A DNA stretch of 64,000 nucleotides from an alpha proteobacterium HIMB59 (lineage in GTDB: Bacteria > Pseudomonadota > Alphaproteobacteria > HIMB59): assembly GCA_000299115.1 (NCBI GenBank), contig CP003801.1, positions 1 to 64,000 on the forward strand, given 5' to 3'. Shown here piece by piece: positions 40,684 to 43,675 of this stretch (position 1 is its first letter; each line of letters starts with the position of its first letter). The position numbers were made by a program, and so were the translations under genes. The notes beneath the pieces are model-generated. The model saw only the letters and a program-made list of their open reading frames with translations. It was not told where the DNA came from and did no database searches.

Positions 40684-41079
40684 TTAACTTGGTTTTTTTG
40701 TTACAAGAGCTATTTTAAGAAATCCGGATGTATTCAAAGCTCCTAAAACTTTCATTACCTCTCCATAATTGATGGAAGTATCAGCTCTAAGAAAAATACG
40801 AATATCATTATTGGAACCAGCAATAATTTTTACCTTGGAAATCAATTCCTCAAAAACAATCAGATCCTCACCTAAATAAATTTCATTATTTTCATTAATA
40901 GATATTTCTAATGGCTCTTTTTGAGCATCAAGAGAGTTAGCTTCTACTTTGGGAAGGTTTACAGGCACACCAACTGTTAACAGTGGAGCAGTAACCATAA
41001 AAACAATAAGCAAAACTAACATCACATCGACCATAGGAGTGACGTTGATATTAGAAACTGGACGATTTTTTTTTCTCAT
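40684..41079 (-). CDS. tolR: Tol-Pal system protein TolR (ExbD family)
   Basis: This proton-channel partner of TolQ has one N-terminal membrane helix (about residues 15-38) with the essential Asp in NVTPMVDVMLVLLIVFMV. The periplasmic part (50-131) has the family IRADTSINYGEVMKVL-like stretch RADTSINYGEVM. The 131-aa length is normal. It touches both neighbours: the tolQ stop precedes it without spacer and its own stop abuts the tolA GTG. Confidence 0.95.
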   Translation of the reverse strand: MRKKNRPVSNINVTPMVDVMLVLLIVFMVTAPLLTVGVPVNLPKVEANSLDAQKEPLEISINENNEIYLGEDLIVFEELISKVKIIAGSNNDIRIFLRADTSINYGEVMKVLGALNTSGFLKIALVTKKPS

Positions 41080-41778
41080 TTAGTTAACTTGACGAGAAAT
41101 AATGTTTACCAAGTCCTTTCCAAAACTTTCTGCCTCTGATAAATAAGTATCAATTCTAGAAGTAATCATATTATAAAATGCGGTAGAAGGGATGGCTACA
41201 AATAAGCCAAGAGCAGTAACGAAAAGTGCTTCTGCTATTCCAGGTGCTACCACAGCTAAATTAGTATTTTGAGCAATTGCAATAGCTTGAAAGCTATTCA
41301 TGATCCCCCAAACAGTTCCAAAAAGTCCAACAAATGGCGCCACAGAACCAGAAGATGCAAGAAATGATAAGCCTTTATTAAGGCTGGTATCCTCTGCTGC
41401 GATCGATAAGTCTAGAGAGGTATAAAGTCTTTGAATAAATGCAGAGTCTATTTTATTTTTTTGTAAACGAGATTTTTCATACTCTCCCATTATATTTCTA
41501 AAAATGTTAGAATAGCTTTCCTGATCGAAATCATCTATTTGCTGATACAATTCATCTAACGAGATGCCTGACCAAAAATGATTTTCAAATTGTTTAGAAA
41601 TCTTTCTTTGCTTGTTAATTAATAAAATTTTTTGGATAATAATTTTCCATGACTGAATGGAGAAAATGACAAGTAAAATAATTACTAATTTTACAACCCA
41701 ATCAGATTTTAAAAACATCCCAAACATAGAAAAGTCTACAGACCCCTCTAATGCTGCTAAGTTTACAACTTCTTCCAT
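41080..41778 (-). CDS. tolQ: Tol-Pal system protein TolQ (ExbB family)
   Basis: This is a three-span inner-membrane protein of the MotA/TolQ/ExbB proton channel. Spans lie at about residues 29-48, 137-160 and 172-195; LASSGSVAPFVGLFGTVWGIMNSFQAI and PGIAEALFVTALGLFVAIPSTAFYN are characteristic. At 232 aa it is complete. It follows the small nuclease-like gene by three bases; the ybgC thioesterase that usually precedes tolQ is absent. Confidence 0.95.
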   Translation of the reverse strand: MEEVVNLAALEGSVDFSMFGMFLKSDWVVKLVIILLVIFSIQSWKIIIQKILLINKQRKISKQFENHFWSGISLDELYQQIDDFDQESYSNIFRNIMGEYEKSRLQKNKIDSAFIQRLYTSLDLSIAAEDTSLNKGLSFLASSGSVAPFVGLFGTVWGIMNSFQAIAIAQNTNLAVVAPGIAEALFVTALGLFVAIPSTAFYNMITSRIDTYLSEAESFGKDLVNIISRQVN

Positions 41779-41781
41779 TAA

Positions 41782-42123
41782 TTAATCCTCGTTATTTTCT
41801 ATTTCGTCAGAATTTACTTTATTTTCAAGTTCTTTTGAAACTTCATCAAAATCATCTGAATGTACCATTATCCAAAAACCAGGTCTATTTTTTTCACACA
41901 AAGCAATCACTGGGGTTTTTTTCTCTTTATCAGCTAAAACTTTAGTATCATCCCAAAGTTTAACGGCAGAATGTTTGGCCCTTAATTTGCACTCTATAAA
42001 TAAGTTATCATGGACCACATCAGAATGTGTGACCTTTGAGTTAATTCCGCTTAAAGCGTTACGAACACCACCAAAAAATCTAGCAACTAATCGCTCTCTA
42101 TTTTTCCAAGCTTTATCAGGCAC
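41782..42123 (-). CDS. Small PDDEXK-type nuclease-like protein at the ruvC position
   Basis: This is a 113-aa protein with a probable PD-(D/E)xK nuclease core: FFGGVRNALSG at the N-terminus, then Asp35 in HSDVVHD, and Glu44-Cys-Lys46 in LFIECKLR, followed by KKTPVIALCEKNRPGFWIMVH. The pattern recalls small phage and archaeal Hjc-like resolvases and phage endonucleases. I chose the GTG at 42123, which overlaps the yebC stop by eight bases (GTGCCTGA) like other starts here; a TTG at 42150 would extend it by nine residues. It lies exactly where alphaproteobacteria usually have ruvC-ruvA-ruvB-ybgC between yebC and tolQ. Activity is inferred; a structure-specific junction nuclease is one possibility. 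Confidence 0.65.
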   Translation of the reverse strand: MPDKAWKNRERLVARFFGGVRNALSGINSKVTHSDVVHDNLFIECKLRAKHSAVKLWDDTKVLADKEKKTPVIALCEKNRPGFWIMVHSDDFDEVSKELENKVNSDEIENNED

Positions 42124-42856
42124 TTGAATTATCCAATAATGAGCTATCAAAATCTAAGTTTGAAAAACAATTTTGTACATCGTCATTATCCTCTAAATCT
42201 TCATTCAATTTTATCAAACGATTTAGTTCATCTTCTTTTTCAATATTGACAGTCATATTAGGCTTCCAAATAATAGATGCACTTTCAATTTCCATATTTT
42301 TTTCTCTCATAGCTTTTTCTAATGAAGCTAGGTCTTCATATTTACAAAATATATAAGTCATACCATCTTCGGTCGTGTAATCATCTAGGCCGCAATCAAG
42401 TAATTGCTCCAAAGTCGTATCATCCAAGATTCCATGCATTTGGATTTCTCCAACTTTATCAAAATTAAAACTCACACTTCCCGTTTCTCCTAAATTTCCT
42501 CCATTCTTAGAAAAGATTGATCGAATTTCAGAGGCGGTTCTATTTTTATTATCAGTAAGGGCTTCTACAATAAATGCTGTTCCAAATGGACCATATCCCT
42601 CGTATCGTACTTCTGTGTAGTCTGTGGTATCTGTATTATTTTTATTAATAGCTCTGTCAACATTGTCCTTTGGCATATTGACACTTCGGGCATTATTAAT
42701 TGCTAGGCGAAGACGAGGGTTAGACTCAGGGTCGGTGCCACCAATTTTTACTGCTATCTGAATTTCTCTTCCAATTTTAGCAAACTGTTTTGCCCTTTTT
42801 TTATCTTGGGCACCTTTTCGATATTGAATGTTTTTAAACTTAGAATGACCTGCCAT
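42116..42856 (-). CDS. yebC: YebC/PmpR-family protein
   Basis: MAGHSKFKNIQYRKGAQDKKRAKQF is the unmistakable N-terminus of the YebC family; GGTDPESNPRLRLAI, NMPKDNVDRAI and YEGYGPFGTAFIVEALTDNKNRTASEIR follow. Members act as transcription regulators or, as shown for some, as translation factors relieving stalls at proline stretches. At 246 aa it is full length. It follows ymdB by three bases. Confidence 0.95.
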   Translation of the reverse strand: MAGHSKFKNIQYRKGAQDKKRAKQFAKIGREIQIAVKIGGTDPESNPRLRLAINNARSVNMPKDNVDRAINKNNTDTTDYTEVRYEGYGPFGTAFIVEALTDNKNRTASEIRSIFSKNGGNLGETGSVSFNFDKVGEIQMHGILDDTTLEQLLDCGLDDYTTEDGMTYIFCKYEDLASLEKAMREKNMEIESASIIWKPNMTVNIEKEDELNRLIKLNEDLEDNDDVQNCFSNLDFDSSLLDNSSA

Positions 42857-42859
42857 AAC

Positions 42860-43675
42860 TTAAGATAGTAAATTACGATCTAAAACACCACCAATTTGAA
42901 TAGATTGAATGGTACTTTTTTGTCCCTTATTACTTGAAATAACAGCTCCAGAAATGGTCGCCTCACCTTCTGCGGGTTCCAAGCGAGGAGTATTCGACTC
43001 CGATCTCATTCTCTTGATTGCATTATCTTTTTTCATTCCAATAACAGAATTGTAATCACCCGTCATACCGATATCAGTTTGAAAACAAGTACCTTTATCC
43101 AAGACTCTTGCATCCATGGTGGGGATGTGAACATGTGTTCCATAAATAGCTGTAAATTTTCCATCATAATTTTGAGCGATACCATTTTTTTCTGAAGTGA
43201 CCTCAGCATGTACCTCCAAAAAAGAATAATCAATTTCATGGTCATTTATAATGGACAGAAGTTTTGTGTCTATTGACTCAAAAGGATTGCTCAATGGCAA
43301 ATCAATAAAGGTTTTTCCATGAACTTGTGATACTAGTATTCTTTCTCCGTTGAGGTGGGTAAAAATTTTATATCCTTGGCCCGGTGAGTCTTCGGTAAAA
43401 TTTATTGGTCTTATTATATTGTGGTCAGGGTTATTTTGCATGTATGCAATGATTTCTTCCTTTTTCCAAGCATGGTTACCTAAAGTAATGGCATCTGCAC
43501 CCCAGCTCATCATATCTTCATAAATTTTGCCTGTAATTCCATAGCCGCCCGCAGAGTTTTCTCCATTGATAATGGTGAAATCGATAGAAAAATGCTCTTG
43601 AATTTTTTTTAAATTATTTTGAAGTGCATTTCTGCCAGAGCGGCCGACGACATCACCAATAATTAAAAAATTCAT
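42860..43675 (-). CDS. ymdB: YmdB-family metallophosphoesterase
   Basis: This calcineurin-like phosphoesterase resembles Bacillus YmdB, a 2',3'-cyclic nucleotide phosphodiesterase. Metal-binding motifs: FLIIGDVVGRSGR, INGENSAGGYGIT, LGNHAWKKEEI, EVHAEVTSEKNG and GTHVHIPTMDA. TDIGMTGDYNSVIGM is typical for the family. At 271 aa it is complete. It overlaps fau by ATGA and leads into yebC, a conserved alphaproteobacterial order. Confidence 0.92.
   Translation of the reverse strand: MNFLIIGDVVGRSGRNALQNNLKKIQEHFSIDFTIINGENSAGGYGITGKIYEDMMSWGADAITLGNHAWKKEEIIAYMQNNPDHNIIRPINFTEDSPGQGYKIFTHLNGERILVSQVHGKTFIDLPLSNPFESIDTKLLSIINDHEIDYSFLEVHAEVTSEKNGIAQNYDGKFTAIYGTHVHIPTMDARVLDKGTCFQTDIGMTGDYNSVIGMKKDNAIKRMRSESNTPRLEPAEGEATISGAVISSNKGQKSTIQSIQIGGVLDRNLLS

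Follow-up and report, generated by a model that had tools for sequence, protein, structure and literature searches.

The stretch analysed here, which we refer to as the window, covers 64,000 nucleotides of the genome of an alpha proteobacterium HIMB59, which consists of 1,410,127 bases in one contig with 99.87% completeness. A small gene for a putative nuclease was located on the minus strand between yebC and tolQ. The features at the locus are as follows:

41782..42123, minus strand: putative Holliday junction resolvase, a phage-type PD-(D/E)XK nuclease of 113 amino acids (E10, D35, E44, K46), based on the open reading frame, profile, conservation and predicted fold
42116..42856, minus strand: yebC (TACO1/YebC family), the upstream neighbour, based on Pfam PF01709 (E 6e-52) and PF20772 (E 6e-29)
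41080..41778, minus strand: tolQ (MotA/TolQ/ExbB family), the downstream neighbour, based on PF01618 (E 1.8e-34)
40684..41079, minus strand: tolR-like gene, which extends the conserved gene order, based on position, homology and conservation across loci and control loci, with no profile basis
42860..43675, minus strand: ymdB-like gene, upstream of yebC, named by sequence recognition with no profile basis

The nuclease gene was read from a GTG codon at 42123, giving a protein of 113 amino acids, whereas a TTG codon at 42150 would give a protein of 122 amino acids. We preferred the shorter form because the orthologues contain a start codon, usually ATG, at the site aligned with the GTG codon. 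The gene overlaps by 8 bases with yebC, which ends at 42116, and 3 bases separate its stop codon from the start of tolQ at 41778. Purifying selection on the gene is strong, with a pairwise dN/dS of about 0.034 against orthologues of the same family, synonymous sites being near saturation. The gene is real and not a chance open reading frame. An initial annotation made from the sequence alone had correctly given the 113-amino acid frame and its distances to both neighbours, as well as the GGxR...SG and Asp35-x8-Glu44-x-Lys46 patterns, both of which are present, but it had missed a further invariant residue, Glu10.

Conservation and chromosomal position of the nuclease gene

The nuclease is encoded at 58 loci of the species-genome collection, with identities of 60% to 93%. 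It adjoins yebC in all 88 bacterial loci checked (these 58 and 30 from the genomes of relatives), and is followed by tolQ in all of them except L068, a single-cell contig in which the open reading frame runs into another gene. The gene is held in this core yebC-tolQ order across 2 families of the HIMB59 order, here called f1 and f2. Furthermore, E10 and the D-x8-E-x-K pattern were invariant in all copies that could be read, namely 97 of 97 bacterial copies (47 different sequences) and 102 of 102 viral copies (37 different sequences).

As controls for the slot, we used 18 alphaproteobacteria that contain RuvC. In 12 of the 18 control regions, yebC-ruvC-ruvA-ruvB was followed by tolQ-tolR, and several of these regions also contained ymdB and fthC upstream, as does the window. 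The shared frame is fthC-ymdB-yebC-X-tolQ-tolR, where X is the nuclease gene in the window and ruvCAB in the controls, and the ymdB-like gene belongs to the part of the frame that is also seen in the genomes with ruvCAB. The nuclease gene occupies the exact chromosomal place of ruvCAB. The claim of the initial annotation that alphaproteobacteria usually carry ruvCAB between yebC and tolQ thus held in these 12 regions, and its claim that the nuclease gene is not a random insertion was borne out by the constant adjacency to yebC and the low dN/dS value.

An alternative explanation is that an unrelated nuclease, for example one for phage defence or restriction, landed by chance at the site of the deleted ruvCAB genes. 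Small PD-(D/E)XK nucleases have many roles, and co-location alone does not establish function. However, the Pfam and PHROG matches include no defence or restriction family, and a gene held in the core yebC-tolQ position across 2 families with a dN/dS of about 0.03 does not show the patchy distribution of defence genes. We consider a chance insertion very unlikely.

It was also noted that one single-cell contig contained 2 near-identical copies of the nuclease region (L068:2118-3020 and L080:2118-2414), in one of which the nuclease frame continued into phosphoribosyltransferase-like sequence. The doubled region is probably an amplification chimera.

Relationship to known resolvases

All 25 aligned members of the nuclease family matched PHROG 2002, which is annotated as a Holliday junction resolvase, with a best E value of 1.7e-10. 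The window protein itself matched with an E value of 1.5e-8, residues 12 to 112 of the 122-amino acid reading being aligned to positions 16 to 121 of the 130 in the profile. The label of PHROG 2002 is itself a remote-homology annotation. PHROG 244, labelled RusA-like, was matched by 11 of the 25 members (best E 4.9e-6). The protein meets the signature of the PD-(D/E)XK superfamily, D-x(n)-(D/E)-x-K together with an N-terminal glutamate, and these residues are conserved in the orthologues.

No match to the nuclease protein was obtained with the Pfam and NCBIfam models. The best E value to the Pfam Hjc family (PF01870) was 0.15, in a single member of the 25, and since the gathering score was not reached, the protein is not a formal member of this family. 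Hjc motif I, (G/P)X4EX9-11G(F/Y) as given in PMC8805305, is not met either: E10 is kept, but position 5 holds an alanine and 7 residues lie between E10 and G18-G19. A profile comparison with Pyrococcus furiosus Hjc gave nothing significant, no RuvC match (PF02075/TIGR00228) of the protein was found in Pfam, none of the 25 members matched RusA (PF05866), PDB sequence searches gave no credible match and the plasmid collection contained no match to the nuclease. Weak Pfam matches to PDDEXK_15 (E 0.048) and to a transposase (E 0.09) were dismissed as being at chance level.

AlphaFold2 models were obtained for the window protein (pLDDT 83.9) and for an orthologue from the second family with a deeper alignment (pLDDT 84.3). 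Both models have the same predicted order of elements: helix, strands, helix, strands, helix. Archaeal Hjc ranked first in Foldseek searches with both models (E 0.012 and 0.0088, probability 0.98), and VIA-align superposed them on P. furiosus Hjc with Z scores of 7.2 and 6.8 (rmsd 3.8; 88 and 85 residues aligned). These scores are moderate, with Z below 8 and Foldseek E values of about 0.01, and tRNA splicing and Cas4-like nucleases scored within 1 to 2 Z of Hjc. The models give good support to a predicted PD-(D/E)XK nuclease fold, whereas a specific likeness to Hjc beyond PD-(D/E)XK nucleases in general is likely, but neither secure nor proven.

The nuclease shares with the PHROG 2002 phage resolvases the full-length profile match of all members as well as close kin in phage genomes, but in HIMB59 it forms part of a core cellular cluster, as a housekeeping gene rather than a phage gene. 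Hjc_15-6, a characterised archaeal-like resolvase of the Thermus phage Tth15-6 with the catalytic residues E10, D40, E53 and K55 (PMC8805305), is likewise of phage source and contains E10-SD40-E53VK55, to be compared with E10-SD35-E44CK46 in the HIMB59 protein. However, it is 155 rather than 113 amino acids long, its gap between the aspartate and the glutamate is 12 rather than 8 residues, and the likeness was noted without a direct sequence comparison. Archaeal Hjc (PF01870; 1gef, 2wcw) provides the best solved-structure matches for the 2 separate models, but shows no significant sequence match, and the classic spacing of motif I is not kept.

Escherichia coli RusA is also a small resolvase, able to replace RuvABC if RecG is present (PMC5055574), but it is normally unexpressed in E. 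coli and belongs to another family, PF05866, which was absent from the genomes tested. RecU of Bacillus is a PD-(D/E)XK resolvase that serves in place of RuvC and works with RuvAB. It is similar in being a resolvase of the cell's own that is used instead of RuvC, whereas HIMB59 lacks RuvAB as well. The phage resolvase G44P of SPP1 partly replaces RecU (PMC3485210) and, together with RusA, provides a precedent for the mechanism proposed below.

RuvABC genes and the distribution of the nuclease

A profile search for RuvC (PF02075) identified no match in the source genome and none in any of 100 relatives. By comparison, RuvC was present in 178 of 191 genomes (93%) in a class-wide alphaproteobacterial sample, and similar searches identified it in other alphaproteobacteria with E values of 1e-23 to 1e-51, including genomes of about 0.6 to 1.4 Mb. 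Searches with a second RuvC model, a RuvA model and a RuvB model found none of the 3 proteins in 12 tested genomes from the HIMB59 order and family f23, while all 3 controls were positive. The source genome retains RecG (E 3e-175) and RecA (E 7e-143), and no RusA (PF05866) was found in the genomes tested. RuvABC appears to have been lost across the HIMB59 order.

It could be argued that highly diverged RuvC and RuvAB proteins are encoded elsewhere and were missed, in which case there has been no replacement. The sensitivity of the searches is limited: the genome search with PHROG 2002 missed the nuclease gene of the source genome itself, and the claims of absence were therefore rested on more than one model. 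Against this explanation, all 5 Ruv models (2 for RuvC, 2 for RuvB and 1 for RuvA) were negative, and similar searches do recover RuvC in other genomes. The best RuvB-like matches reached only about 27 bits, compared to a cut-off of 299 bits, and were weak AAA+ matches in open reading frames of 418 to 815 amino acids. Judged from score and length, which is not that of RuvB, they were rejected as RuvB and taken to be other AAA+ proteins. Undetected RuvABC proteins therefore seem very improbable.

The nuclease profile was positive in 9 of 385 genomes of the class, 5 from the HIMB59 order and 4 from family f23, and none of the 9 contained RuvABC; the 4 genomes from family f23 are only 68% to 89% complete. 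In the 191-genome sample, 4 of the 13 genomes without RuvC carried the nuclease, for which a naive hypergeometric estimate, calculated by hand, is about 1e-5. This is not a strong test, because the 4 genomes represent only 1 to 3 evolutionary events.

Nine genomes (G116, G141, G176, G186, G218, G252, G274, G283 and G285), all of 1.0 to 1.9 Mb, lacked RuvC and were not among the carriers of the nuclease. Since neither gene was detected in these 9 alphaproteobacteria, RuvC can evidently be lost without the nuclease being required in every case.

Phage homologues and proposed function

The closest outside homologues were genes in marine phages and viral contigs, with up to 76% identity. In the contigs examined, the phage copies are placed between terS and terL, with genes for portal-type and major head proteins beyond, and 114 of the 119 viral loci, among which some contigs were counted twice, contained a terL homologue. 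The neighbourhood of the terminase genes suggests that in the phage the nuclease may clear branches from replicating DNA before packaging. The order terS, small nuclease, terL, portal-type and major head protein was observed in a group of marine phages (L173, L176, L195, L205, L228 and other IMG/VR loci), which also contained genes for a helicase, a primase and an exonuclease.

The explanation that we favour is that a phage-type PD-(D/E)XK nuclease with a predicted Hjc-like fold took over the job of RuvC in the HIMB59 order, which we consider likely. The gene, its conservation, the replacement in the slot, the absence of RuvABC, the presence of RecA and RecG and the phage homologues are shown, whereas the fold, which is a prediction, the cutting activity, the dimer, the partnership with RecG and the direction of transfer are inferred. 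In the proposed mechanism, RecA would make joint molecules and junctions, RecG would move or remodel the junctions, RuvAB being gone, and the small nuclease would cut Holliday junctions as well as other branched DNA. The nuclease may, by analogy with Hjc, bind the four-way junction as a dimer, with D35 and E44 holding Mg2+ and with K46 and E10 completing each active site, and 2 symmetric nicks would yield ligatable duplexes. Domestication of such an enzyme is not trivial, since resolvases from phages may harm the cell, as shown by the toxicity of SPP1 G44P (PMC3485210).

A rival explanation is that the protein is a general phage nuclease that debranches DNA, or acts on flaps or D-loops, in replication repair, and that junctions are removed by RecG and topoisomerase dissolution. 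In its favour, resolvases of viruses typically act on branched DNA with less selectivity (PMC3864405), the fold match would also suit other PD-(D/E)XK-like enzymes, as indicated by the small margin over tRNA splicing and Cas4-like nucleases, and 9 alphaproteobacteria cope without RuvC and apparently without the nuclease gene. However, the ruvCAB slot is filled exactly, carriers in the class sample occur only where RuvABC is gone, and PHROG as well as both fold searches point to junction resolvases. We consider this rival unlikely and retain the replacement of RuvC by a junction resolvase as the preferred reading.

The initial annotation had suggested a phage- or Hjc-like junction nuclease that replaces RuvC without RuvAB. 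The link to phages held, the predicted fold matches the Hjc type with moderate scores, and the replacement is supported, although biochemical activity is still an inference. Neither of the results named there as refuting the idea was obtained: no normal ruvC or ruvAB was found elsewhere in the complete genome, Asp35, Glu44 and Lys46 are invariant, and the predicted fold matches Hjc-type resolvases and not a non-nuclease family.

The replacement of RuvC by another resolvase is already known as a kind of event. However, the open-licence literature searched describes no order in which all of RuvABC was lost and a phage-type PD-(D/E)XK substitute is maintained in its place, and it contained nothing on HIMB59 with ruvC or Holliday junctions, and comparative-genomics papers on the HIMB59 clade mentioned neither ruv nor Holliday. 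RuvABC is regarded as the standard junction machinery of bacteria. If the replacement is true, a large and ecologically important order of abundant ocean bacteria relies on a 113-residue phage-type enzyme, which would show the extent to which the system can be reduced and provides a natural test of the need for branch migration by RuvAB in the presence of RecG. The locus would then also clearly exemplify a phage gene turned core housekeeping gene at the exact site of the system that it apparently replaced.

A phage origin of the HIMB59 gene is likely, the direction of transfer being inferred. In trees inferred from 95 columns, families f1, f2 and f23 each formed one group among the phage sequences, and a single clade of all bacterial rows was not rejected (p-AU 0.11). 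These data are compatible with a single ancient capture, accompanied by exchange to phages, as well as with several captures. A bolder reading, which remains no more than a possibility, is that resolvases from phage packaging modules were captured on more than one occasion into the same slot, independently in f1, in f2 and in f23, the outside family, and always in a lineage without RuvABC, which would leave a one-protein system partnered with RecG as the sole route of junction resolution in these free-living marine bacteria. Family f1 sits on a long branch. It was also observed that residues 25 to 33 read SGINSKVTH in f1, as opposed to SGGNGK(V/I)TR in f2 and nearly all phages, which could perhaps mean that the DNA-binding loop became adapted once the gene had been domesticated.

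Finally, the nuclease homologue in the Bacteroides phage BS162P1 (L279:4323-5315) contained a long N-terminal part resembling an HNH-type homing endonuclease (annotated I-HmuI), which is flanked in the nuclease frame by the near-repeat VVVKNPTSKSCWK / VVVNKPTSKVSWK. A mobile endonuclease may have been inserted in frame into this nuclease gene.
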